61,362 bases of DNA from Nitrospirota bacterium. GTDB lineage: Bacteria > Nitrospirota > Thermodesulfovibrionia > Thermodesulfovibrionales > SM23-35. The notes under the pieces are model-generated. The model was not told the DNA's origin and did no database searches. It worked only from the letters and a program-made list of their open reading frames with translations. The stretch covers positions 1 through 61,362 of the forward strand of contig JBFMCL010000020.1 of NCBI GenBank assembly GCA_040754395.1, written 5' to 3'. The position numbers and the translations under genes are program-made. Positions 36,925 through 52,648 of this stretch are shown one piece after another. The first letter of the stretch is position 1, and each line of letters opens with the position of its first letter.

Positions 36925-37052
36925 TGATTGAGATACATAAAGATACACAGATAGAGAGAGAGACACTTGGAGATACATGGAGACACACGGAATCACATGG
37001 AGATTTATGGAAACACACAGAGATGCATGGAGATACACGGAGATTCATAGAG
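36925..37052. repeat. Imperfect 11-12 base tandem repeats (GGAGATACACGG type)
   Basis: About ten degenerate copies of GGAGATACATGG / GGAGACACACGG run head to tail upstream of the membrane-protein gene. The opposite-strand relative (ATCTCAATAAATCTCAACGT) appears at about 37680-37735. Confidence 0.7.
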
Positions 37053-37081
37053 CTTTTCTTAGATTCCTTGTGGAATTAATT

Positions 37082-37612
37082 ACCCAAATCCAGTGATACG
37101 TATAATCATTGCGAGTGCAGTTGCAAGGGCACAGCACGACACAATATAGAGCTAATGAGGCGTTTCCTGTCCCTGCGAGGAGCCCCTTTTCTGTCATTGC
37201 GATGCCCCCTGTTCTATCATTGCGAGGGCGCAGCCTGAAGCAATCTTGTCGTTCCATGCCAAAAACGAGATCGCCACGCTCCGCTCGCGATGACAGCCCT
37301 AAAAAAGCAATTGCGGAAAACACGGTGCGTATCGTTGCGAGTCCCTCTTTTCCTGTCATTGCGAGGAACAGAGTGACGAAGCAATCTCTTCGTTCAAGCC
37401 CTTCTGTCATTGCGATGCCCCCTGTTCTATCATTGCGAGGGCACAGCCTGAAGCAATCTCTTCGTTTTGCCCTAATCCGTCATTGCGAGGAACAGAGTAA
37501 CGAAGCAATCCCGTCCCATGCCAACAGCCAGATTGCCACGCACCTTTTATGTGCTCGCAATGCCCCGTATGCCAAACTCGTGAATTGGTTATCGCTGGAT
37601 CTGGGAACTATA
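37082..37612. mobile_element. MITE-like composite repeat element (copy 5)
   Basis: Left end CCCAAATCCAGTGATACGTA; right end GGTTATCGCTGGATCTGGGA; these are inverted relative to one another. The interior carries repeated GTCATTGCGAGG..GACGAAGCAATC units and three copies of GTCATTGCGATGCCCCCTGT-type text. It accounts, with tandem repeats on both sides, for the 840-base gap. No gene is seen. Confidence 0.68.
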
Positions 37613-37742
37613 TTTTTCAACTTAACAAACAATTCCTGAATATCCTGAAGCACATTATCTATATTATCACTTCTCTTCATTCTCCATCTATCTCAATAAA
37701 TCTCAACGTATCTCAAGGCATCTCTATCATCTCTATCAGTTG

Positions 37743-38255
37743 TCAGGGCTCTTCAGTTGAATCCTTGGCTCCTTTGCCCCTTGAATCCTCGGTTTTTTCC
37801 AGTTCTTTCATCACCAGATTGATCAGTACGGGGATATTCTTCTCCATCAGCGGCGAAAGTTCCATGCTGGCGTTAAGGCTTTCCGGCTCAATGCCATAGA
37901 AAATGATTTCCGGGGGTTTGGTGCCCAAAAAGGAGGTAATCTGCACCACATCAGTGAAATCAATGCCGTGGGCTGAGCGCATTACCCCCTTTTTCCCGGC
38001 AAGGTCTTTATCGGTAAAACGGAACAGGGTTCCCGGTGGCGCATCTGCCTTTACCGCATCTACCACAATGACCTTTTTCCTTCCCTCGATACAGTATACG
38101 AGGTCAAGACCGCCAGTGCCACCGTCAATCACTTCGACATCAGGAGGCAGAGACATTTGCTTCATTTTTTCGGCCACACGGACGCCGATTCCTTCATCGG
38201 TGAGAAGGATGTTGCCGATGCCGAGGACGAGAATTGGTTTCAAAGGTTGTTCCAT
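37743..38255 (-). CDS. Hydrogenase maturation protease (HyaD/HybD family)
   Basis: An M52 endopeptidase that removes the C-terminal tail of the [NiFe] large subunit once nickel is in place. The 170 residues show ILVLGIGNILLTDEGIGVRV (Glu about 22 as nickel ligand), VIVVDAVKADAPPG (Asp ligand) and the His in RSAHGIDFTDVV. The C-terminal tail (DSRGKGAKDSTEEP) derives from a repeat-like sequence. It is encoded downstream of the hydrogenase operon on the same strand and is the best candidate to process the large subunit at 39580-41364. Confidence 0.92.
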   Translation of the reverse strand: MEQPLKPILVLGIGNILLTDEGIGVRVAEKMKQMSLPPDVEVIDGGTGGLDLVYCIEGRKKVIVVDAVKADAPPGTLFRFTDKDLAGKKGVMRSAHGIDFTDVVQITSFLGTKPPEIIFYGIEPESLNASMELSPLMEKNIPVLINLVMKELEKTEDSRGKGAKDSTEEP

Positions 38256-38290
38256 AGCATGGTTATACCTTTCTGTCTTTAATATTGAGA

Positions 38291-38810
38291 CAACGGGATT
38301 GCTTCGTCATTTCATTCCTCGCAATGACGGAACAGGTGGCATCGCAATGACTCCCATAGTCGTCATCGCGAGCCGGAGGCGTGGCGATCTCGCTGTTGTT
38401 CTGAAGTATGAGATTGCTTCGTCACTTTGTTCCTCGCAATGACGGAATAGGTGGCATCGCAATGACTCCCATAGTCGTCATCGCGAGCCGGAGGCGTGGC
38501 GATCTCGTTGTTGGCGTTGAACGACGGGATTGCTTCGTCATTTCATTCCTCGCAATGACGGAACAGGTGGCATCGCAATGACTCCCATAGTCGTCATCGC
38601 GAGCGAAGCGTGGCGATCTCGCTGTTGTTCTGAAGTATGAGATTGCTTCGTCACTTTGTTCCTCGCAATGACGGAATAGGCGAATGCAAAGATGGCACAA
38701 GGTTGTTATTGCATGACCTTGGTGCCTTGTCATTGCGAGCGACCAGCGGGAGCACGGCAATCTGTTTTTTTTAGGGTTGTCATCGCGAGCGGAGCGTGGC
38801 GATCTCATCA
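38291..38810. repeat. Palindromic repeat block with 231-base tandem duplication
   Basis: A segment beginning GGGATTGCTTCGTCATTTCA at 38295 recurs at 38526 (offset 231) and continues nearly identical to about 38692. It contains alternating GACGAAGCAATC-type and GGCGTGGCGATCTCG-type units. No coding region is supported. Confidence 0.8.
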
Positions 38811-38830
38811 ACAGTGAATGCCTGTAATCC

Positions 38831-39118
38831 TCATAATTCATCATATAAATCCTTCCATCCAGGATTTACCGAATTCACCAATTCAAATTTCTTCTTTCTC
38901 GATCCACCCTTGATTTGCTTTTCGCGCTGAATCGCATTGAGAGAATCCATGAACACTTCATAATACACAAGTTTTGTAACATTGTAGTTTCTTGTAAACC
39001 CTTTGATCACCTTTTCCCTGTGCTCGAAGACTCTTTTCTTCAGGTTGTTTGTCATGCCTGTATAAAGGACACTGTTGTTTTTGTTCGACATTATGTACAC
39101 GTAAAAATAAGTGTCCAT
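38831..39118 (-). CDS. GIY-YIG domain protein
   Basis: A 95-residue GIY-YIG superfamily protein (UPF0213/YhbQ type). It has the modified signature VYIMSNKNNSVLYTGMTNNL (Y...YTG), the Arg in KKRVFEHR, and the Glu/Lys pair in AIQREKQIKGGSRKKK. Such small proteins are putative single-strand or structure-specific nucleases. It is sandwiched between two palindromic repeat blocks with no other partner, so it may travel with them or act on the hairpins they form (inference). No clear ribosome-binding site precedes the ATG. Confidence 0.85.
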   Translation of the reverse strand: MDTYFYVYIMSNKNNSVLYTGMTNNLKKRVFEHREKVIKGFTRNYNVTKLVYYEVFMDSLNAIQREKQIKGGSRKKKFELVNSVNPGWKDLYDEL

Positions 39119-39154
39119 ATGACATTATGTCATCAATGAGAGACGTGAAGCAAC

Positions 39155-39299
39155 CCAAAACGACGAGATTGCTTCGGGCTATGCCCTCGCAATGACGGTA
39201 TAGGTGGCATCGCAATGACTCCCATAGTCGTCATCGCGAGCGGAGCGTGGCGATCTCGTTGTTGGCGTTAAAGTATGAGATTGCTTCGTCATTCCATTC
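39155..39299. repeat. Palindromic repeat units downstream of tandem array
   Basis: Two or three units (GAGATTGCTTCGGGCTATGC, GTCATCGCGAGCGGAGCGTG, GAGATTGCTTCGTCATTCCA) of the dispersed family, continuous with the 24-base tandem array that starts at 39300. Confidence 0.75.
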
Positions 39300-39404
39300 C
39301 TCGCAATGACGGGTATAGGGGGACTCGCAATGACGGGTATAGGGGGACTCGCAATGACGGGTATAGGGGGACTCGCAGTGACGGGTATAGGGGGACTCGC
39401 AGTG
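39300..39404. repeat. 24-base tandem repeat, four full copies plus a partial
   Basis: Copies at 39300-39323, 39324-39347, 39348-39371 and 39372-39395 share CTCGCAATGACGGGTATAGG + GGGA (the fourth has one A-to-G change), followed by a partial copy to 39404. The unit is half of the dispersed palindrome plus a spacer, so it arose by slippage from that repeat. It is translatable antisense as PIPVIAS repeats but is not a gene. Confidence 0.9.
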
Positions 39405-39530
39405 CAGGGAAATGGCGTATGTAAACCGTGAAATGGCGAGTGTAATGACAAAATTGCGGTTCTTTTATGTGCTTTCGGTAGTGCATGGGCGTAATGTCCG
39501 GTATCCCTTCAATGCACATATCCACTCGCC

Positions 39531-39579: not shown

Positions 39580-41364
39580 CTACTCGACTTTTTCGATATT
39601 TGCCGGCCTTCCGTCAGGACCGATAGCAAATTTCAGCTTCTCTTTGCCGTCAGGACCCACGACGTGTACTGCGCAGGCGATACAGCAGTCAAACGGATGA
39701 ACGAGCCTGAGAATATTCAGGACCTTTTCTTCATCAGTTGTGCCGATGTAGGAGCCAACTAGTGACTGTTCCACAGGACCAGAAGTGCCGTTGTTGTCCT
39801 TCGGAGAGAAGTTCCATGTGGAAGGAACGACACACTGATATTTCGCGACCTTGCGGCCTTCGATCTTGATCCAGTGGCCCAATGCACCTCTCGGCGCCTC
39901 GCAGAGGCCAACGCCTGTGCTGATCATCTTCGAGATCTTCTTGTAGGTGAATGCTTGGCCGTTATCGACGAGCGCGCCGTTCCAGACAGCGCAGGCATCA
40001 GCAAGCAGTTTTGCCTCCAATGCCCGTGCAGCGTGCCTTCCGAGAGTGCTGATAAGGTCACTTACTGGTCTGTTTAGACCACCTCCAGTTCCTCCCATAA
40101 CAGCGTTAATCAGTGTCCGAACGCTGTAAGGACTTCCGCCCGAAATACCGAAGTTTGTCATGAAGGTATTTGTGACCGTTTGTCCAGTATCACTCGAGAG
40201 GTAGGATACAAACATGCGGGCCAGTGGACCGACTTCAAGGACCTGTGCGGCTGTACCATATCTCGGAGCCTTGAGCCAGCTGTACTGTGCATCTGCAGAA
40301 GACTTCATGTTCGGGACGGTCACACCGTCAAACGGATGGCGTCCATTGGTCTTAAGCACCGCATCCAGCGCGGGATAATCGTACCAGGAATTACCGACAT
40401 GCTCCACAATATTGGCCTGATCAAACGCACCTACGCTTGTACTTGCTGATGTCGCAATGCCTCTCTTGATGAGCAGGACATTACCAGTAGCGTTCATCGG
40501 GAAATCGCCATAGGAGAGGAAATTCCCGCAACCAAACCCCTGAGTCCAGAAAGAAACAAAGTTCGGAGTGGTTGATGTTGCGACCGTCACCACATTCGGT
40601 ATGTAGGTGTTGTCGATAAAGTCCCTGATCTGGTTCAGAATGTTAGTGAATTTAGTCTTTGTTTCTGTCAGATTGAACGGACCCCATGCATCGTAATCAG
40701 TCCCTACCTGATAAGGATTCGGATACGTTGTAGAGGTAAGGGTTGATACGCCACCGGGAATGATCGCGTTCTGGATCGGATGTCTGCCGCTGAATAAAGC
40801 ACTTGCCGTATGCGCCAGTCTCCTCATTTTGAGTGCCGTTACATAATTCACAATGAGCGCCTGTCCAAGAACAGAGCTGCCTGCAATGAGATCTGAAGTG
40901 GTATAGGACGGAGTCCATGGTGACATGTTCACAAGACCTGTCGAGAAGTTGATGAAGTCCGGTGCAGACAGATGGTAGAAGTGGGTAATGTGGGACATGA
41001 CCGTATCCATTCCATGAATGATGTTCCTGATCAATCTTCCATTCGTTGGGATAAGATACGTATTGTACGGAGCCGTATTGTCAATATCTCCATCTGAAGT
41101 ATTTTTTCCGGAATCAGTAACATACCCTAATGCATTGTCTAAGCTTCTAACTGAAGCTAACCCATGTGCGGTGGGTCAAACCGCTCATATACGCTGGGCA
41201 ATGACGGGTGCATCCCTCGGATCCCTCCTGTTCATGATGAGTTCGAAGCCCCTGAACAGATTGCCTGTACATTTTGCACTGGTAATAGTGCCGGCAGTCT
41301 CTGAAACAACCACTTTCAAATGTCCTTCAATCCGGCTTACAGGATCAATCGTAATTGTTGCCAT
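39580..41364 (-). CDS. [NiFe]-type hydrogenase large subunit with two in-frame TGA (selenocysteine) codons at the L1 cysteines
   Basis: Large subunit of a group 1 periplasmic uptake hydrogenase. The reading frame starts at the ATG at 41364, preceded by GGAGGT (41380-41375), giving MATITIDPVSRIEGHLKVVV and FRGFELIMNRRDPRDAP, the classic N-terminus. It then reads QRI-TGA-A-V-TGA-PTAHG. The TGAs (41187-41185 and 41178-41176, residues 60 and 63) replace exactly the two cysteines of L1 (RxCGxC), and the Gly is Ala. Reading on gives RNIIHGMDTVMSHITHFYHL and, at the C-terminus, L2 as FDCCIACAVH (C561, C564, H567; Pro replaced by Cys), followed by a 27-residue tail for protease removal. Read through, it is 594 residues, a normal length. 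Stop-free reading alone begins only at the TTG at 41034 and lacks L1, so it could not bind nickel. Selenocysteine is inferred. A double nonsense pseudogene is the alternative. Confidence 0.85.
41142..41158 (-). promoter_or_regulatory. Candidate bacterial SECIS hairpin for both TGA codons
   Basis: In the mRNA AGCUUC-AGUUA-GAAGCU forms a perfect 6-bp stem with a 5-base apical loop containing G then U at positions two and three. The loop begins 23 bases after the second TGA and 32 bases after the first. Bacterial SECIS models ask for a short stem, an apical loop with G in its first two positions and roughly 16-37 bases between UGA and loop, so one hairpin could serve both. A second small hairpin (GCGGU/ACCGC) starts directly after the first TGA. 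No folding was computed. Confidence 0.6.
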
Positions 41365-41384: not shown

Positions 41385-42749
41385 TTAGATAAATGTATAG
41401 AATTTTCCGACTTTGTCGGGGAACGTAGGCTCAGTGCAGCCATGGCAGTTGCCTCTGCTTCCTACGCACCAGTTAACACCATACTGTTCGGCTGTATCTG
41501 TATTCCATCTTCTGCGGGAACAGTCAGCCTTCGTCTTCCTTCCCTTGCAACCGAGAATTCCGAGACATCCGAGGGCATCAGACTTCCATTTCTCCCTTCC
41601 GAGTCTCTTGCTGTCGCCGGTTGGCCACCTGTAACTGTAGTCCGCATCGCCGGTGTAATTAATGTTCGGCGGGTAGGTGCCAGGAGGACCACCTACGCCA
41701 GGTGTAGTCCAGTAAGCTGGATCAGTATTTGGTGGAATTGGTGTGCCGGTCCATGGAGTGGTATACGGATCGGTATTGAGCGCCTTTTTCGGAATATTGT
41801 TATACCTCCATGGGCATGGCCCAGCGTTACACTGGTATTCACGATACCCATAATCCAACGGACGGCGATAGTTGGTCAGTGTTGGAATCGCAGCCGCAAG
41901 CCTTGCTTTAACACCATCTATGTCGCCATTATTGATTAAGTCTATCACTGGCTGTAATCCGCCGAGGGTACTTACGATATGGGCGATGGTGCCGACGATC
42001 CAGTCCGCATGTGGAGGACAGCCCGGAATGTTGATCGTTGCCTGTTCAATGGGCATTCCCAGAATGTTTGTCACCGGAGCAGCATCTACGCCAAGACTAT
42101 TGTCGAGCAGCGCACCAGCTCCGTATGTGGCTCCCTTATACAGCGCACCCCTTGCATCTGTGGCATTTCCCCTTGCTCCCGGAATTCCTCCGAAGGACGC
42201 ACAGGTGCCTACCGCAAGGACCGCGAGGGCATGTCTTGCAAGACGGCGTGCATTATAGAGCATGGTCTCATTGCTACCTCCGGTCAAATCGCCGACATGG
42301 CAAAAATCTCCGCGTGCTCTTCCGGTACCTTCAGGCGACGCGCACTGGATAGCACCCTCAAGCACAAGGACATACGGCAAATTGACTGATGCGGGATTAG
42401 CACCAGGAACCAATGCGTTATACAAAGACTCAACATAGGCTACTGATGATTTGGGTCCTGCGACTGTGCCAATCTCTGAACCGGCAGCGGTCATGATGGT
42501 CTTGTGGTATTTGAGGTCGAGGGTGTTGATCAGCAGATCGTCCGCCGTGGTGTAGAAAACGGAATTCAGCAAGCTCACGGAACAGCCGGTACATGCTGCG
42601 CCATCGAGCCAGATAACGGGTATACCGCCGCTCAGATAATCCTTCGCAAGCGCTTCATCGAGCTTCATTAATGTTGATGCCGAGAGCCCGAGCGCGCCTG
42701 CTGCAACGGAGCAGTATTTCAAAAACTCTCTACGAGTAATACGAAGCAT
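41385..42749 (-). CDS. [NiFe]-type hydrogenase small subunit, Tat-exported
   Basis: Electron-transfer subunit with three Fe-S clusters. The 454-residue precursor has a twin-arginine signal (RITRREFLKYCSVAAGALGL). Proximal cluster ligands appear in GAACTGCSVSL, VGTCASFGG and IPGCPPHADW. The C-terminal cluster region reads LGILGCKGRKTKADC, RRRWN, NWCVGSRGNCHGCTEPTFPD. A Pro/Thr/Tyr-rich insert of about 80 residues (around 300-380) separates the halves. Where most enzymes have a His three residues before a Cys for the distal cluster, this one has REYQC. It lies 20 bases upstream of the large-subunit start and follows the 71-aa gene by five bases. Confidence 0.92.
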   Translation of the reverse strand: MLRITRREFLKYCSVAAGALGLSASTLMKLDEALAKDYLSGGIPVIWLDGAACTGCSVSLLNSVFYTTADDLLINTLDLKYHKTIMTAAGSEIGTVAGPKSSVAYVESLYNALVPGANPASVNLPYVLVLEGAIQCASPEGTGRARGDFCHVGDLTGGSNETMLYNARRLARHALAVLAVGTCASFGGIPGARGNATDARGALYKGATYGAGALLDNSLGVDAAPVTNILGMPIEQATINIPGCPPHADWIVGTIAHIVSTLGGLQPVIDLINNGDIDGVKARLAAAIPTLTNYRRPLDYGYREYQCNAGPCPWRYNNIPKKALNTDPYTTPWTGTPIPPNTDPAYWTTPGVGGPPGTYPPNINYTGDADYSYRWPTGDSKRLGREKWKSDALGCLGILGCKGRKTKADCSRRRWNTDTAEQYGVNWCVGSRGNCHGCTEPTFPDKVGKFYTFI

Positions 42750-42973: not shown

Positions 42974-43729
42974 CTATAACCTGTTCACATGGCAATCTGC
43001 GCACATCTTCGATCCGGAGTTATCGGATCTCAGGAAAAACACCTGCGAACCGACTGATTTGCCTCCAACCATCTGCTTGCCGGGATATGCCACGGTATCA
43101 TGGACAGCATGGCATGTTGAGCACTCAAACTGATCAGTTGCTGCAGTGGTATCTGCACCGTATAACGGATACTTAGCACCGTTTGCTCCGAGAATCCAGT
43201 ACCTCCATGGTGCTGTAGGACACTGGGTCGCGATAGGAAAACCGTTGTTGTCCTGAAGGTTATCCCTGCTCGGATCATACGTGAAGCTGATCGGATGCTC
43301 ATTGCTGAGGTCCATGTCAAGCATTGCCCAGAAAGTCGGGTTCATCTCGTAATCGTAATTCTCATTTGAGTGAGAGCCCGGCCCGGGATAGTTCACAAGT
43401 GAACTGAATACGCCGTTATGGCATACCAGACAAAGTGATGAGGGTTCCGCAGGACCTGATTGCGCATCCACGGCCATATCGAAGGACGGGCTTCTGTACA
43501 TGGTGTATGACTGAGGGCCCTGATCCCTGTTCCAGAGCGGATACTGTCCTGTACCTGAGTGCGGTGAATGACACATTGCGCAGGGCTCAAGACCGGCCTC
43601 ACCGGTGATCACCTGCACATCATGCGGAGTTCCATAGATTCCGGGGGTTCCACCTTCTCTTGCCCAGAGGAATGTGACAAGACCCAAAATCAGTGTAAGT
43701 GCAGTTACGAGCACTAAGGTTTTCTTCAT
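42974..43729 (-). CDS. Tetrahaem c-type cytochrome, hydrogenase partner
   Basis: A 251-residue exported cytochrome with signal peptide (TLVLVTALTLILGLVTFLWA) and four haem motifs: CAMCH, CLVCH, CSTCH and CADCH. It is first in the operon before the small and large hydrogenase subunits and probably accepts electrons from the distal Fe-S cluster. The arrangement of haems and the phrase SLCLVCHNG near the middle match the cytochrome at 25592-26308, so the hydrogenase and the conduit operon use related carriers. GGAGGTG lies before the ATG. Confidence 0.9.
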   Translation of the reverse strand: MKKTLVLVTALTLILGLVTFLWAREGGTPGIYGTPHDVQVITGEAGLEPCAMCHSPHSGTGQYPLWNRDQGPQSYTMYRSPSFDMAVDAQSGPAEPSSLCLVCHNGVFSSLVNYPGPGSHSNENYDYEMNPTFWAMLDMDLSNEHPISFTYDPSRDNLQDNNGFPIATQCPTAPWRYWILGANGAKYPLYGADTTAATDQFECSTCHAVHDTVAYPGKQMVGGKSVGSQVFFLRSDNSGSKMCADCHVNRL

Positions 43730-44899: not shown

Positions 44900-45182
44900 C
44901 TATTCTCAAATCCAGCGACAGAAATAGTCATTGCAAGCGACAGAAGGAAGGGATTGCTTCGTCACTTTGCTCCTCGCAATGACCTTTTTGTGTCGTCATT
45001 GCGAGCGACCAGCGGGAGCGCGGCAATCTGTCTTTGGTCGTCATCGCGAGCCGGAGGCGTGGCGATCTCGCTGTTGGCATGGAACGACGGGATTGCTTCG
45101 TCGCCCTGCTCCTCGCAATGACAGAATAGAGCAGAACCAGCGGGATTGCTTCGTCACGGCGTTCCTCGCAATGACGGAATAG
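44900..45182. repeat. Palindromic repeat block with a left MITE-like terminus only
   Basis: Begins TCTCAAATCCAGCGACAGAA, the left terminus of the composite elements, followed by units GTCATTGCAAG..GATTGCTTCGTC..CTCGCAATGAC, CATTGCGAGCGACCAGCGGG and CATCGCGAGCCGGAGGCGTG. No matching right terminus is visible before the coding region at 45200, so the element seems truncated. No gene. Confidence 0.65.
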
Positions 45183-45199: not shown

Positions 45200-48100
45200 T
45201 TATGTCCCATCGGCCTTATTTGGGTTGCCCCCTTTGCCCTTTGCATCCCTATCCCCCGATGCTTTCATCTTCTTTCTGCACTCCACAAGGAGCTTCTGCG
45301 TATCCGCAGTGAAGTTGCCTGTTTCAATTGCTGCTTCCAGTAACGATGCCGCGTACTTATATAAATGAGTGTCGATAAATTGCCTGGCAAAAAATGAAAA
45401 ATAGGTTGCAGGGCTGAAATTCATCTCTCTCAATGCATTGATATATGCGAACCCCTTTTCTTTTTGCCCTGTACAGATAAGTACCATTGCAAGGGCAGTC
45501 ATCGCTTTCGGATATCCGGGCTCTTTTTGCAGCAATGCTTCAAGACGGGCAATGGCGTTTTCTACGGCACCGGTAAAAACTTCACAGGTTGCATAATGGA
45601 CAACTGTATCTCTCGACACAGGTGAAATCTGCATTGCCCGGTTATATGCCGAAATCGCTTCTGCATAGCGGCCAAGATTATAATTAACATTTCCCATGCT
45701 TTCAAGGGCATTCGAGAAATCGGGCTTTTTCGAGACAGCTTTCTCCAGGTATTCCAGTGCCTCCGGATATTTTCCGATTCCGGATGCCTGGACAGCAAGA
45801 TCAAAGAGAGCCTTTGCATCATCGCCGCCTTTTTGGACAAGTCTTTCCTTTCCCAGCATGAAGTAGTACTCGTGCTTGGCTGCCATTTTTTCTTCATCAA
45901 GCAGTCCGTAATGGTGAACGGGTATTTCACTGCGCTGCACAGAAATCCCCAGTGTAGTGAGCGATGGTTCGATCCGCTCATGCACAGGGTCCTCAAAACG
46001 AATGCGAGGATCATTCGGAAATAACCGTACCTTCTCGCCGTGGAACCATCCTGTGCCCGCTTCCTCTGACGCGTATGCCCCATCATTTTTAATCCATCCT
46101 GAAGTATTCACTGGTACGACATAATTACGGCTGACGAGTGTATAGGCGACAGCGGCAGGATTTAATGATTCCGGAGATTCAGGGTCTGCATGCTCTTCAG
46201 AGTCATCGTGGGCCGGAGGCGTGGCGATCTCTCTGTTGGCGTTGACCGACGAGATTGCTTCGTCGCTTCGTTCCTCGCAATGACCTTTTTGTGTCGTCAT
46301 CGCGGGTGACCGGAGGGGGTGAGGCAACCTGTCTTTTGTCGTCATCGCGGGCGGAGCGTGGCGATCTCGCTGTTCTGAGTGAGATTGCTTCGTCACTGCA
46401 TTCCTCGCAATGACGGGGGAAGAGGTCCTCCTCGCAATGACTGTCTGTTGAAGTTTACCCAAATCCTTGAATCCTCGACCCCTCGACCCCTCTGTAATGA
46501 GTTCTCTGAGCCTTCCATAGTCAGAGGAAGAAATAGCTTCATCCGCGTCCAGAATCAGTATCCATTTGCCGGTAGCCTTCGAGAGCGAAAAATTCCTCGC
46601 ATCAGAGAAGCTGTCAGTCCACGCAAAATCATATACCTTAGCGCCGAGGGCTGTTGCAATATCTTTTGTCCTGTCTGTTGAGCCTGTGTCAACAACGATC
46701 ATCTCATCTGCAAGGCCTTTTACGCTCATTAGGGCGCGGGCAATGTTATCCTGCTCATTCTTTGCGATCATGCATAAAGAGACAGAGAGTGATGGAGCCT
46801 CATTGAGATTGGGGGATTGTGAATCAGAGATCGTTTGAGACCGGCGGAGATCTGAGACAGTGTGAGATTCGTTGGAAGAGGAGCGAAACGGTCTGTCTTC
46901 TTCCTCTTGTAAGTCATCGCGGATGGAGCGTGGCGATTGCGGTGTTGTTCCGAACGATGAGATTGCTTCGTCGCGTTGCTCCTCGCAATGACTCCCATAG
47001 TCCTCATCGCTGGCGACCGGAGGGGGCGAGGCAACCTGTCTTTTGTCGTCATCGCGAGCCGGAGGCGTGGCGATCTCTCTGTTGGTGTTGAACGACGGGA
47101 TTGCTTCGTCACTGCGTTCCTCGCAATGACTCCCATAGTCCTCATCGCGAGCCGGAGGCGTGGCGATCTCTCTGTTGGCGTTGAACGATGAGATTGCTTC
47201 GTCACTGCGTTCCTCGCAATGACGGGGGAAAAGGTGCTCCTTGCAATGATCTTTTTGTGTCGTCATTGCGGGTGACCGGAGGGGGTGAGGCAACCTGTCT
47301 TTTGTCGTCATCGCGGGCGGAGCGTGGCGATCCCGCTGTCGGCATTCCGCGAGCAGACGGCGCGTTTTTTCAGTCGCAAGACCCAGCATCACTGTTGCCT
47401 CAAGCAGCCGGGAGGCATAATCAAACCGTTTCAATGAGATTAACTGTTCCGCCATATTTGTAAAATATGGTCCCGGATTGAACATGGAGTCCTGTGACTT
47501 TTTGGCATATTCAAATCCCTCATCTTTTCTGTCAGAGCAGAAATATGATACTGCGAGCAATTGCACTACCAGCGGATTATCAGATTCTATTGCATGGATA
47601 TTTTTGAGAGCACGGATAGCTGCATCAGGATTGCCGGCATAGAGTTCACAGGTTGCATACATAAAACTTGCATCTATGGAATCAGGGGATAGCTGGAGAG
47701 CCTTTTTGTAAGACGAGAGGGCTTCCTCATACCTCCCGAGGCTGTAGTATGATGTCCCTAACCCATAGTAGGCTTTTCCAATATCAGGCCTGATAGCAAT
47801 AAGTTGTTGCCAGTATTCCAGAGCTTCATCAAATTTCTCGAGTTCTGAAGCCTGTACCGCTAATTCATACAGAGCAACCGGATCTTTTTCACCCTGCTTG
47901 GAGAGTTTTTTTCTTCCCATTTGATAATACAGCTCACCTTTTGCAAGCACATGGTGCTTCATTAATTTCCCATAATGGTGGATGGGTATTTCTGTTGGCT
48001 TGATATCTATGCCGATTTTTTTCAGAGAATTTTCAACCATTTCGTGAACGGGATTTTCGAACCGGATGCGGGAGTCATTCGGGAACAGCCTCACTTTTCT

Positions 48101-51100
48101 GCTCGGGAACCATCCTGAGCCGGCCTCTTCCCGGTATTTCCCGTCGTTGGGATACCAGTTTACGCAGACTTCACCGACATAGTTCCTCGAGACGAATGAA
48201 TAGGCTACGGAAGGTTTGGAGGTTCCCTTTTTGTCATCGCGGGTGAACGGAGGCGTGGCGATCTCTCTGTTGGCGTTGAACGGCGGGATTGCTTCGTCAC
48301 CGTGTTCCTCGCAATGACGGAATGGGTTGGAGGACGGAATTGTATCGTCGCGCTGCTCTTCGCAATGACCTTTTTGTGTCGTCATCGCGAGCGGAGCGTG
48401 GCGATCTCGCTGTTCCAAGTGAGATTGCGTTGTCGCTTCGCTCCTCGCAATGACGGGGGAAGAGGTGCTCCTCGCAATGACTGTCTGTTGAAGTTTGTCC
48501 AAATCCTTGAATCCTCGACCCCTCGACCCCTCTGTAATGAGTTCTCTGAGCCTTTCATAATCCGAAGCAGCGATCACCTCATCGGCATCAAGAAGCAGTA
48601 TCCAATCTCCTGTTGCCTTTGAGATAGAGAAATTACGCGCGTCGGAAAAGTTGTCTGTCCACGGGAAATCATGTACGGTTGCGCCAAACACCCGTGCAAT
48701 CTTCTTTGTCCTGTCTGTGGAACCTGTATCTACCACTATCATTTCGTCAATAACAGGTTGAACACTCTGAAGCGCGTGCATGATATTTTGCTCTTCGTTT
48801 TTTGCGATCATGCATAAAGAGATAGTGCCCTCTTTTTTGACGTTGCGATCCGCCTCAGACGGAGTGGCAATCTCTTCCGTTTCGATGTCACTATGAGATT
48901 GCTTCGTCGTCCTGTCCCGACGCATGTCGGGATCGGCATTCCTCGCAATGTCAGCATTTTCTCCCTCAATTGACCCCATTTCCCCTTGCATCCTATTAAA
49001 TGAACCCCTTGACGACCTTATCTCCATCACTCCCACCTTCTGCCTCAGCTTCAGCGCAAGATTGAGTGTATCGTCATCGATCCCGAAGGCAATCAACGCC
49101 TTTTGTATCTCGTCCATTGCCTGTCGGAAGAGCCCCTGCTGAAGGAGGTTGTCGATAAGGATAAACTGCAGTTTTCTGCAGAATGGATAAAGCCCAATTG
49201 CCTCACGGAAGCGTTTTTCTGCTTCAGGCAATTTCCCGAGATCTACCGCAGCAGAATAGTAGTTGATCACTATGTCTTCAGACGTAGAGGAGAGAACAAA
49301 TGCCTTTTCGAACAGGGTGAATGCATCCTCTTTTTTCCCGTGACTCCATTTAAGCGCACCAAGATTTGAATAGGATTCACCATATCCCATGTCGGCATCC
49401 AGCGCCTTTTGAAAAAATCTCTCCGCGTCAGGATACAGGAGTTTCGCAAAAGCGAGAGTTCCCTTGAGATTCAGGGCTCCGGCAGAGGTGCGCATATTCA
49501 GGACTTCATCGGCATACTGCTCAGCTTCAGTCAGCTGACGCAACCCTTCCTTACAGTAGCCCATAAGCTCAAGCGCCATTACGTCATTCTTTATTCCCTC
49601 CGGCAAGTGTTCCAGGACATTAAGGGCCTCTTTGAATTTGCCGTCATCGATCAGTAATTCTGCGAGGGCGAAGTAGAGTCTTTTGTCATCAGGATATGCG
49701 TCGATCCCCTGCCTGAGCGTAACGACTGCGTTCCCTTTTTCTCCCTTTTGCCTCAATTCATCCGCAAGAAAAAGGCTGTCCATGCTGAACCGTTTCCTTG
49801 CGTCGGCTTCAGGACCGCCCTGATGTATCCATTGCTCGATAAAGACTCGTCTGTCTTTATTGAGGAGAGAGGCAATGTCTGCAGTCCGGCTGTCAGGTCT
49901 GTGATGGCCATGGAAATGCACAAATACATCACCGGCGATCATATTCCTGTACCCTTCCTCTGAAGCTCTGAAACAATAATCCTTATCCGCATATTTAGGC
50001 ATGTCATACCGCTCATCGAAGAGACCGATCTTCTCCGCCATCTCGTGACTGAAGAGCATGCAGAAACTGTCCACGTTTTTTACATACACACGACGGTATC
50101 TGTTCCTGTCCCTGAATTCCTTTGCAAACGCTTCAAGGGCTGTTCCGTCCGCGTTTCGTTCCTCACAATGCCCCGTCTTTTTGTCATTGCGAGCCGAAGG
50201 CGAAGAAATCTCGTTGTTGAGCTTGATGCGGGAGATTGCTTCGTCGTCCGTCTTGGCGGACTCCTCGTAATGACGAGAAGAAAAGGTGTCATTGCGAGCA
50301 GATTCTTTTTTTGTCATTGCGAGCCCGGAGGGCGTGGCAATCTTAACTCCCTGCCGTCCTTCCATGTTTACCGTCATGGGCCCGACTATCCCGATATCGT
50401 CAGCACTGCTGTGGCATTCAAGCAGACCCGTAAGCCAGTCTTTCGTGACTTCAACCGCATCATTCAGAAGAACGATGTGCTCACCCGATGATTCAGCCAT
50501 CCCCAGGTTGCAGGCTTGGGAAAAACCCAAAGGCTGTGATGAAAGATTCAGGGATTCGAGGGTTCGAGGATTCGAGTCCATTGACCCCTTGACTCCTTGA
50601 CTCCCTCCCCCCTCAATGTGAGAGGGTACTTTTATCAATCTGCAATTCCTGTTTTCCTTCAGAAGCCTCCGGAGCCATTTCGGCGGGGCAAACGAGGCAA
50701 TAAGGGGAACAAATATCAGTTCATATGACTCTCTGGTATGTTTCAGAACGCTCTCCACGCACTTTCTTGAATACTGCCGCTGACCTGAGAGAAGGATAAC
50801 GATGGAAACCAATCCTTCAGTCCTGAATTGATGCGGGGCAGGATCAGTTTCCTGTTCAACAGGGTGCATCATCTGCGTGTCACTTAATATATTCATGGGC
50901 TCTTTCAGTTCCGGCGCGGAACCAGTATATACTAAGTGTTTAATCTCCGAAGGTTCAGGAACGGGGATATAATGTTTTTTTGGATCAAAGGGCTGGGCCA
51001 GAATATCCGACAACATCTGTGGTGAATTATGATGTCCATATGGCAGGTCTTTGGGCAAATTCCACTTACTCTTGTATCTTTCCCATGCCTCCCACAATTG

Positions 51101-52648
51101 TCTGTTATACTGCATGTCGCCACGGCCCTGTGGTCCTCCCGTGTGATGGATAAAGACATCATTTGCGATATACGTCTTGAACCCGGCGATATTTGCCCGC
51201 CAGGTATAGTCATCGTCCTCAAACCCGAATTTTCCGAACGATGCATCAATGCTCCCGATCTTATCAATGACTTCTCTCCGGATGCACATGCAGAATCCGA
51301 CAAGCCGGACAGAGGGCGTTAGTTGACCGTGATGCTGTTGCGTAAACAGTGACGCGAAATTTTCCAGTTCATCGATGTTCTGGTATGAAACATTTGGCAC
51401 AATCTGCGCTCCAGAGACATAATTTGAGCGGGGACCCAGCACCCCAATGTAAGGATGAGACGTCATATGCGCGATGAATCTTGTCACCCATCCTTTTGTA
51501 ACGATCGTGTCATTGTCCAGCAGGATAACGTAATTACCTTTTGCGAGCGACATCGCCTGGGCGCGGGCAGGCGGGCAGCCGACATTTGTCGGATTTTCAA
51601 TCAGTATGATATCCGGCAACGAACGCAGGTACTCGAGCGAACCGTCTGTTGAAGCATTATCCACAACGATAATCTCATGCCTCTCAGGAGTATTTTTCCG
51701 TATTGATTCAAGGCAGGCTTTTATATTTTCAAGTCCATTGTAATTCAGAATGAGAATGGATACGAGTGGAGCCTCCTCGTGTATCACAGGAGAAGGAACA
51801 AATGGCTTCCCCGACGCGTCAATAAAGCTCAGCTCAACTTCCTGATGGCAGGCATTTGGGGTAAAATGCATGAATTGCCTGAGATCGATCCTGTATCCCT
51901 TCTCGAAGAGTTCAGTCAGTTTCTCAGGGCTGTATTCCCTCTTATTACTTGCCCTGTTTGTCCACGATTGCTGGACAATATTTGCCGGCGTGCAAAAAGC
52001 AGCAGACTGCTCAAAACACAGAAGGAAGGGTTTTTCTTTTTGAAATATGGATTTGTTGGCGTCAATGAATGCTTCAAGAGTATTTGGATTACGGAACGGA
52101 AATTGAGCGATAAAGGGCAGGATATCTTCTGTCCTATAAACAGAACTCGAGACCTCAAGTGGATAGCCAAAGTCACATTCACCCTTTGACCAATCGTACT
52201 TCAGAATGCCCTTGCCTACGGCTTCAAAATCGGGAAGTCGCTGATCCCTGTTCAGAGAATAGCAGTATTGGGTATTTCTTCCCAGACGAAGAGAGAATCC
52301 AAGAGCGTCAGTGTGACTTTCCAGACTTTGGAGAACCTCAAACATGCTGAAATCCCTTACAAATAAGCTGTTATCACGAAGAAATAGAACATGGTGAAAA
52401 GGAGCCAGTAGGGCACACATATCGCTTCGGAAATCCTGCTCACGAATAAACTGAATGGATGTATGCTGTCTGTACTCTTCAGCAAGTTTCTCATATTGTG
52501 TGGTATGCAAGGTAGCTGAAGTAGTATATAAAATGCGGATTTGAGTTGTTTCGATATCTCGACCATATAAGAGAAAGGAACGCAGTACTGCATCAAGCTT
52601 TAGAGCGCGGTCTTTACTGAATATCAGAACGATGCAAGAGAATTCCAT
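45200..52648 (-). CDS. Giant multi-domain glycosyltransferase/TPR protein with in-frame repeat insertions
   Basis: A 2482-residue cytoplasmic protein. Order: an N-terminal glycosyltransferase-like region (1-285), GT2 domain A (from ~294; SILILNYNGLENIKACLESI, LLDNDT), GT2 domain B (from ~610; VSIVILLSGQRQYSRKCVES), a TPR stretch (~960-1210), GT2 domain C (from ~1271; ISLCMIAKNEEQNI, LLLDADE), TPRs, GT2 domain D (from ~1958; VSLCMIAKNEQDNI, LILDADE) and C-terminal TPRs. C and D are duplicated modules of the SunS/O-glycosylation type. Five tracts encoded by dispersed palindromic repeats (such as HCEERSDEAISS and RDRHAPPAMTT) interrupt domains or linkers without breaking the frame. It probably builds surface glycan or glycosylates proteins. 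Confidence 0.85.
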   Translation of the reverse strand: MEFSCIVLIFSKDRALKLDAVLRSFLLYGRDIETTQIRILYTTSATLHTTQYEKLAEEYRQHTSIQFIREQDFRSDMCALLAPFHHVLFLRDNSLFVRDFSMFEVLQSLESHTDALGFSLRLGRNTQYCYSLNRDQRLPDFEAVGKGILKYDWSKGECDFGYPLEVSSSVYRTEDILPFIAQFPFRNPNTLEAFIDANKSIFQKEKPFLLCFEQSAAFCTPANIVQQSWTNRASNKREYSPEKLTELFEKGYRIDLRQFMHFTPNACHQEVELSFIDASGKPFVPSPVIHEEAPLVSILILNYNGLENIKACLESIRKNTPERHEIIVVDNASTDGSLEYLRSLPDIILIENPTNVGCPPARAQAMSLAKGNYVILLDNDTIVTKGWVTRFIAHMTSHPYIGVLGPRSNYVSGAQIVPNVSYQNIDELENFASLFTQQHHGQLTPSVRLVGFCMCIRREVIDKIGSIDASFGKFGFEDDDYTWRANIAGFKTYIANDVFIHHTGGPQGRGDMQYNRQLWEAWERYKSKWNLPKDLPYGHHNSPQMLSDILAQPFDPKKHYIPVPEPSEIKHLVYTGSAPELKEPMNILSDTQMMHPVEQETDPAPHQFRTEGLVSIVILLSGQRQYSRKCVESVLKHTRESYELIFVPLIASFAPPKWLRRLLKENRNCRLIKVPSHIEGGGSQGVKGSMDSNPRTLESLNLSSQPLGFSQACNLGMAESSGEHIVLLNDAVEVTKDWLTGLLECHSSADDIGIVGPMTVNMEGRQGVKIATPSGLAMTKKESARNDTFSSRHYEESAKTDDEAISRIKLNNEISSPSARNDKKTGHCEERNADGTALEAFAKEFRDRNRYRRVYVKNVDSFCMLFSHEMAEKIGLFDERYDMPKYADKDYCFRASEEGYRNMIAGDVFVHFHGHHRPDSRTADIASLLNKDRRVFIEQWIHQGGPEADARKRFSMDSLFLADELRQKGEKGNAVVTLRQGIDAYPDDKRLYFALAELLIDDGKFKEALNVLEHLPEGIKNDVMALELMGYCKEGLRQLTEAEQYADEVLNMRTSAGALNLKGTLAFAKLLYPDAERFFQKALDADMGYGESYSNLGALKWSHGKKEDAFTLFEKAFVLSSTSEDIVINYYSAAVDLGKLPEAEKRFREAIGLYPFCRKLQFILIDNLLQQGLFRQAMDEIQKALIAFGIDDDTLNLALKLRQKVGVMEIRSSRGSFNRMQGEMGSIEGENADIARNADPDMRRDRTTKQSHSDIETEEIATPSEADRNVKKEGTISLCMIAKNEEQNIMHALQSVQPVIDEMIVVDTGSTDRTKKIARVFGATVHDFPWTDNFSDARNFSISKATGDWILLLDADEVIAASDYERLRELITEGSRGRGFKDLDKLQQTVIARSTSSPVIARSEATTQSHLEQRDRHAPLAMTTQKGHCEEQRDDTIPSSNPFRHCEEHGDEAIPPFNANREIATPPFTRDDKKGTSKPSVAYSFVSRNYVGEVCVNWYPNDGKYREEAGSGWFPSRKVRLFPNDSRIRFENPVHEMVENSLKKIGIDIKPTEIPIHHYGKLMKHHVLAKGELYYQMGRKKLSKQGEKDPVALYELAVQASELEKFDEALEYWQQLIAIRPDIGKAYYGLGTSYYSLGRYEEALSSYKKALQLSPDSIDASFMYATCELYAGNPDAAIRALKNIHAIESDNPLVVQLLAVSYFCSDRKDEGFEYAKKSQDSMFNPGPYFTNMAEQLISLKRFDYASRLLEATVMLGLATEKTRRLLAECRQRDRHAPPAMTTKDRLPHPLRSPAMTTQKDHCKEHLFPRHCEERSDEAISSFNANREIATPPARDEDYGSHCEERSDEAIPSFNTNREIATPPARDDDKRQVASPPPVASDEDYGSHCEEQRDEAISSFGTTPQSPRSIRDDLQEEEDRPFRSSSNESHTVSDLRRSQTISDSQSPNLNEAPSLSVSLCMIAKNEQDNIARALMSVKGLADEMIVVDTGSTDRTKDIATALGAKVYDFAWTDSFSDARNFSLSKATGKWILILDADEAISSSDYGRLRELITEGSRGRGFKDLGKLQQTVIARRTSSPVIARNAVTKQSHSEQRDRHAPPAMTTKDRLPHPLRSPAMTTQKGHCEERSDEAISSVNANREIATPPAHDDSEEHADPESPESLNPAAVAYTLVSRNYVVPVNTSGWIKNDGAYASEEAGTGWFHGEKVRLFPNDPRIRFEDPVHERIEPSLTTLGISVQRSEIPVHHYGLLDEEKMAAKHEYYFMLGKERLVQKGGDDAKALFDLAVQASGIGKYPEALEYLEKAVSKKPDFSNALESMGNVNYNLGRYAEAISAYNRAMQISPVSRDTVVHYATCEVFTGAVENAIARLEALLQKEPGYPKAMTALAMVLICTGQKEKGFAYINALREMNFSPATYFSFFARQFIDTHLYKYAASLLEAAIETGNFTADTQKLLVECRKKMKASGDRDAKGKGGNPNKADGT
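46195..46450. repeat. In-frame repeat insertion within GT2 domain D
   Basis: Palindromic units (GTGGGCCGGAGGCGTGGCGA, GATTGCTTCGTC..CTCGCAATGAC) split domain D between LRELITEGSRGRGFKDL and VAYTLVSRNY. Encoded text includes HCEERSDEAISSVNANREIA. The frame stays open. Confidence 0.8.
46905..47345. repeat. In-frame repeat insertion between TPR region and GT2 domain D
   Basis: About six palindromic units occupy ~440 bases between the last TPR before domain D (LLEATVMLGLATEKTRRLL) and the start of domain D. Encoded text includes two HCEERSDEAI copies. The frame stays open. Confidence 0.8.
48230..48500. repeat. In-frame repeat insertion within GT2 domain C
   Basis: Palindromic units lie at the same place in domain C as the insertion in domain D, after ELITEGSRGRGFKDLDKLQQ. 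The ~80 bases on the plus-strand right side (about 48480-48550) are nearly identical to 46420-46510. Confidence 0.8.
48835..48960. repeat. In-frame repeat insertion before GT2 domain C
   Basis: GCAATCTCTTCCGTTTCGAT, GAGATTGCTTCGTCGTCCTG and GGCATTCCTCGCAATGTCAG encode NADPDMRRDRTTKQSHSDIE ahead of domain C. The frame stays open. Confidence 0.7.
50150..50350. repeat. In-frame repeat insertion within GT2 domain B
   Basis: Units GTCATTGCGAGCCGAAGGCG, GAGATTGCTTCGTCGTCCGT and CATTGCGAGCCCGGAGGGCG lie between GIVGPMTVNMEGRQGVK and ALEAFAKEFRDRNRY of domain B. The frame stays open. Confidence 0.75.

Follow-up and report, generated by a model that had tools for sequence, protein, structure and literature searches.

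A SECIS-type hairpin predicted to serve two UGA codons in a [NiFe]-hydrogenase large subunit gene of a Nitrospirota bacterium

A hairpin within the coding sequence of a [NiFe]-hydrogenase large subunit is, in all likelihood, a bacterial SECIS element that gives selenocysteine (Sec) at two in-frame UGA codons, here called UGA1 and UGA2, and hence a UxxU form of the N-terminal L1 motif. This reading is drawn from sequence alone, and both the binding of SelB and the insertion of Sec are inferred. A first-pass annotation had proposed a single SECIS hairpin for the two TGA codons, and the proposal is supported by a conserved and covarying stem in UGA-bearing homologues and by the absence of the strict form of the hairpin from CxxC homologues. 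That the same hairpin serves both codons is an inference from the absence of a second element, and is the best-supported reading of the data. The gene lies in a 61,362-nt stretch of contig JBFMCL010000020.1 (assembly GCA_040754395.1), referred to below as the window (Table 1).

Table 1. Features of the window discussed in the text.
Feature	Position	Strand	Remarks
Multihaem c-type cytochrome	42974-43729	minus	CXXCH motifs; upstream of the hydrogenase genes
Hydrogenase small subunit with TAT signal	41385-42749	minus	Just upstream of the large subunit, co-directional
[NiFe]-hydrogenase large subunit gene	39580-41364	minus	594 aa; two in-frame TGA predicted as Sec (U60, U63)
UGA1 (predicted Sec60)	41187-41185	minus	First L1 ligand position, in place of the first Cys of RxCGxC
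UGA2 (predicted Sec63)	41178-41176	minus	Second L1 ligand position, in place of the second Cys of RxCGxC
Alternative hairpin GCGGU/ACCGC	41184-41180 with 41172-41168	minus	Overlaps UGA2; present in the window, not conserved
Bacterial SECIS-type hairpin	41142-41158	minus	Conserved and covarying across UGA-bearing homologues
HycI/HupD-type hydrogenase maturation protease	37743-38255	minus	

A hydrogenase large subunit with two in-frame TGA codons

The large subunit matches PF00374 with 375 bits (cut-off 25.8) and, in a phmmer comparison, the HysA structure 5jsu with E=1e-79, U60 and U63 aligning with the cysteines of RICGVC. Its L1 motif reads R-I-U-A-V-U-P-T-A-H, compared with R-I-C-G-V-C-P-T-A-H in the HysA structures. 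The two UGAs are in the same frame, 9 nt apart, and the frame remains open for 531 codons past UGA2, with 61% identity to relative G013. All four Cys/Sec ligand positions are present, as the L1 pair of RIUAVUPTAH and the C-terminal pair of DCCIACAVH, and the C-terminal ligand motif D-C-C-I-A-C is all cysteine. An odd residue stands beside the Ni-Fe site in this motif: in place of the usual D-P-C-x-x-C, the window and G013 have D-C-C-x-x-C, and G007 has D-F-C-x-x-C. By inference, the multihaem cytochrome is a likely electron partner of the hydrogenase.

Elsewhere in the window, repeats of the RHCEEQSDEAI / CEERSDEAI type occur in many reading frames (37045-39451, 44931-45182 and inside 45200-52648), and a large glycosyltransferase/TPR gene (45200-52648) seems to have been invaded by this intergenic repeat family.

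Homologues with UxxU, CxxU and CxxC motifs

Homologues with two, one or no TGA at the L1 motif were all recovered from a search of 61 genomes of the same family and order. A DNA pattern scan of named genomes for the UxxU motif gave at least 120 stretches, at least 105 of which pass an IEGH filter, a few further real ones being cut by contig ends; the remaining stretches were rejected as off-target matches. The UxxU motif is thereby found in at least 105 hydrogenase genes from Nitrospirota, Chloroflexota and a few records under other labels, and the merged set holds 110 distinct UxxU, 7 CxxU and 11 CxxC sequences. Within the order, 57 of 149 genomes have a UxxU match. CxxU occurs in 20 of the 395 genomes of the phylum, always in the L1 motif of a hydrogenase, and no UxxC hydrogenase was found in the same 395 genomes, where none of the three UxxC matches is a hydrogenase. 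An internal TAG or TAA close to the end of the match appears in some homologues (L035, L048, L049 and others); these are most likely gene ends that the search read through and not recoding.

UGAs fall exactly at both L1 cysteine positions in more than 100 homologues, and the exact swap of both cysteines in many lineages is the signature of Sec. As far as sequence comparison can decide the matter, the homologues settle that the UGAs are read as Sec. The phylogenetic tree requires at least seven changes among CC, CU and UU and puts the window gene with G013 (UU), G007 (CU) and G011 (CU), on long branches that leave the placement unsure. It fits a path from CxxC through CxxU to UxxU, in which the second ligand was converted first.

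The hairpin and the bacterial SECIS rules

The hairpin consists of six base pairs between a 5' stem AGCUUC (41158-41153) and a 3' stem GAAGCU (41147-41142), enclosing the loop AGUUA (41152-41148), which has G at position two and U next; the loop lies 32 nt from UGA1 and 23 nt from UGA2. On the minus strand, this is exactly the stem, loop and spacing that the first-pass annotation had described. In-register hairpins of at least 6 bp arise by chance in 1.5% of synonymous codon shuffles of the window gene and 0.8% of those of its nearest relative, each with the gene's own codon usage, and the in-register hairpin is more than chance would give.

Bacterial SECIS elements are described as having a loop of 3-9 nt, a stem of 4-16 bp, a minimum free energy (MFE) of -7.5 kcal/mol or lower, a distance of 16-37 nt from the UGA to the apical loop, and a G at loop position one or two, frequently with G or U next (PMC13188914). 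We applied these published bSECISearch rules by hand to the hairpin for each UGA. The 5-nt loop and 6-bp stem satisfy the size rule, both distances fall inside the spacing range, as had been claimed, and the loop is NGU in all 117 UGA-bearing sequences. The MFE is -7.8 for the 31-nt element with flanks and -6.7 for the bare 21-nt stem-loop. The rules on loop, stem and spacing are satisfied for both UGAs; the energy threshold is just reached with flanks and missed by the bare stem-loop. An Rfam scan of the window at gathering scores gave no match, and the fold energy is unremarkable (z about -1.6 for 61-nt stretches and -0.12 for 106 nt). Position and covariation, rather than fold energy, carry the argument.

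Conservation and covariation of the stem

For comparison across homologues the helix was indexed from UGA1 (index 0), its in-register pairs running from 34-40 to 29-45. Five or more consecutive in-register pairs form in 60 of the 110 UxxU and 3 of the 7 CxxU sequences, and in none of the 11 CxxC sequences; when one bulged base is allowed, five pairs are reached in 94% of UxxU and 36% of CxxC sequences. The mean number of consecutive pairs is 4.71 in UxxU genes against a synonymous-shuffle expectation of 1.63, and 1.36 against 1.08 in CxxC genes.

Among 56 distinct UGA-bearing sequences, 86% of cells are paired, compared with 73.4% after shuffling and at most 55.7% when the helix is slid. Double-change cells number 48 against 16.7 in shuffled sets (0/500), and the covariation score of 0.329 falls to 0.139 on shuffling and to no more than 0.093 on sliding the helix. 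Facing stem codons occur as GCT/AGC, GCC/GGC, AGC/GCT, TGC/GCA and GCA/TGC; since these triples change together, a silent site tracks a partner that alters the amino acid. The loop valine is encoded by GTG in 114 of 117 sequences, although GTG makes up only 31% of downstream valine codons. A missing stem in homologues that keep their TGA codons had been named beforehand as the outcome that would refute a SECIS; compensatory changes are instead what these homologues display. Phylogenetically independent contrasts on supported branches number 3-4 per stem position, too few for significance, and none among those listed runs in the opposite direction.

A different, longer hairpin is found in the CxxU homologues G031, G042 and G060 (more weakly in G024) and in the UxxU homologue L174. 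With its loop placed 18 nt downstream of UGA2 and 27 nt downstream of UGA1, this hairpin also obeys the spacing rule.

One hairpin or two elements

Three CxxU genes, G007 and G011 from the clade of the window gene and G059 from the main clade, have the same hairpin in the same place and only UGA2. When all helices in the first 75 nt were scanned, covariation was strongest for this helix and for its sub-helices or shifted versions, and no other helix there was found to covary. The hairpin in CxxU genes and the lack of a second covarying helix together make a single SECIS for both UGAs the best-supported explanation. Two other helices (index 9-13/18-22 and 19-23/36-40) pair well in main-clade sequences yet covary little or not at all; the T-T-V-H and V codons account for them, the window gene forms neither, and both were rejected.

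Each UGA might instead have an element of its own, the hairpin acting on UGA2 only and UGA1 depending on another structure such as GCGGU/ACCGC. UGA2 is indeed closer to the middle of the usual spacing range, and this 5-bp alternative hairpin does exist in the window, with four of its pairs also in G013. However, no more than 2 of the 110 UxxU sequences form its fourth pair (index 4 to index 18, counted from UGA1), which fails in the other 108, and its one freely varying pair does not covary (0.63 paired observed, 0.61 expected), so that we rejected it as a conserved element. The suggestion that it tunes readthrough consequently finds no support. With no further covarying helix at hand, and with the loop of the main hairpin at a permitted distance from each UGA, separate elements appear improbable.

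Under the preferred reading of one hairpin for both codons, SelB carrying Sec-tRNA-Sec would bind the G-U apical loop and deliver Sec as each UGA enters the A site, the hairpin refolding or staying bound in between; this single element would act over 23 nt for UGA2 and over 32 nt for UGA1, both codons lying upstream of the loop. The predicted product is a [NiFe]-hydrogenase large subunit with UxxU instead of CxxC in its N-terminal L1 motif. Both Sec residues would be ligands of the Ni-Fe site, one terminal and one bridging, as inferred from known structures of related hydrogenases, on which the ligand roles given here rest.

Selenocysteine machinery of the genome

The genome encodes a tRNA-Sec (71 bits, UCA anticodon, G73, encoded CCA), located 1.3 kb from a contig end beside transposase-like frames, and a SelD (338.6 bits) whose gene has an in-frame TGA of its own. 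No match to selA and no selB over the cut-off were found in the assembly, which is rated 99.96% complete. Among relatives, selB exceeds the cut-off in 58 of 61 genomes and selA in 36 of 41, and the two lie close together with an aminopeptidase-like gene and purF between them (both named from sequence by eye). The aminopeptidase-like gene was not found in this genome either.

These absences could mean that the Sec machinery has been lost, the UGAs being plain stops and the large subunit a recent pseudogene. A precedent may exist in relative G012, whose selA and selB are present in fragments only, which suggests that this lineage lost its Sec system recently. Such a loss is at odds with an intact tRNA-Sec and an intact UGA-containing selD, with the long open frame past UGA2 and its identity to G013, and with the prevalence of selB in the group. 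The joint absence of selA, selB and the gene between them is also what one gap would give. We therefore give loss of the machinery little credence and regard the absence of selA and selB as probably an assembly gap, with some doubt remaining.

A second tRNA-Sec-like tRNA in this genome, with a GCA anticodon and U73 (L010:1501-1600, G000:C16:80860-80959), matches the selC* tRNA-Cys described earlier (PMC7609411). In G013 (L230) a second SelB gene has its start overlapped by such a selC*-like tRNA, and several genomes of the window's family (G003, G007, G011, G013 and G018) each have two SelB-like proteins over the cut-off, which may form selC*/SelB* pairs beside a normal Sec system.

Coding constraint and cysteine insertion as alternatives

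The hairpin might also be a mere by-product of encoding the conserved peptide (A/S/C)-S-V-R-(A/S), with Sec insertion relying on something else. Any-hairpin energy does not discriminate the window gene from its synonymous shuffles (p = 0.31) and is thus ordinary for this peptide, and for many of the bulged main-clade stems the synonymous-codon null is not rejected sequence by sequence. What coding constraint does not account for is the lack of the strict hairpin in every CxxC homologue, the covariation of a silent third base with its stem partner, the GTG bias of the loop valine, and the loss of signal when the helix is slid; we consider a coding by-product distinctly unlikely. Least tenable, to the point of being hardly credible, is that a selC*-type tRNA reads the UGAs as cysteine or some other amino acid: selC* tRNA-Cys/SelB* pairs have been described, including ones that carry a UCA anticodon (PMC7609411), and this genome does have a tRNA-Sec-like tRNA with cysteine features, but the one found here has a GCA anticodon and reads UGC/UGU, and the sole UCA tRNA above the family score has the G73 and encoded CCA of tRNA-Sec.

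Comparison with known systems

As in the bacterial SECIS of the E. coli fdhF type and the bSECISearch consensus, the window hairpin is a stem-loop within the coding sequence just 3' of the UGA, with a small apical loop carrying G then U and a spacing within 16-37 nt. It differs in being placed for two UGAs 9 nt apart, whereas proteins with a single Sec are the usual case in a selenoproteome review. Two close Sec codons are nevertheless not unique, since that review includes a few UxxU families of bacteria (Prx-like, mercury-binding and FmdB-like).

The closest solved relative is the [NiFeSe] hydrogenase HysA of Desulfovibrio vulgaris (PDB 5jsu), which belongs to the same large-subunit family and has a Sec-containing Ni-Fe site. 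HysA has Sec at its C-terminal motif and Cys at L1, whereas the window protein is predicted to have Sec at L1 and has only Cys at the C-terminus. The Sec of D-P-U-x-x-C that defines HysA is not present, a Cys-Cys pair standing in the C-terminal motif, and scores against the NCBIfam HysA models NF045518 and NF033181 are below the curated ones (352.2 vs 780 and 454.1 vs 600 bits); membership of the HysA family was rejected on both grounds. The VhuU/FrhA-type Sec hydrogenases of methanogens and deltaproteobacteria likewise have Sec at a Ni-Fe ligand but are reviewed as UxxC only, unlike the UxxU of the window. Group 1-type CxxC [NiFe] hydrogenases (e.g. G020, G028, G040 and G058) are of the same family, come from the same bacterial order and are adjacent on the tree; they lack both the UGAs and the strict hairpin at that place, and the window gene has both.

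Recent reviews place Sec in hydrogenase large subunits solely in the UxxC motif of the FrhA/Vhu types and record none at L1. The selenoproteome reviews of 2022 and 2026 yielded no hydrogenase large subunit with UxxU or CxxU, and no N-terminal Sec hydrogenase was found in the literature searched, which was restricted to open-licence papers and does not prove absence.

Implications for hydrogenases of Nitrospirota and Chloroflexota

Two features are predicted to be new: the use of one bacterial SECIS by two UGAs, and the ligand position that Sec occupies in a [NiFe] hydrogenase. More broadly, and with moderate confidence, we propose that these genes represent a widespread, undescribed group of Nitrospirota and Chloroflexota [NiFe] hydrogenases with Sec at both N-terminal ligands, terminal and bridging, inserted through one SECIS; the bridging position may have been converted first along the path from CxxC to CxxU to UxxU, and the SECIS then reused for the upstream UGA. 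Standard gene callers likely truncate these hydrogenases at the first UGA, so we infer that hydrogen metabolism in these groups may be under-counted. If the prediction is true, the genes would provide a natural case for studying the reach of a bacterial SECIS and the use of one hairpin by two UGAs, and the CxxC, CxxU and UxxU homologues a natural series for asking how selenium affects O2 tolerance and catalytic bias. Natural Ni-Fe sites in which selenium replaces the bridging sulfur, a ligand set unreported in the open-licence literature searched, would then occur across many uncultured bacteria of the subsurface and of sediments.
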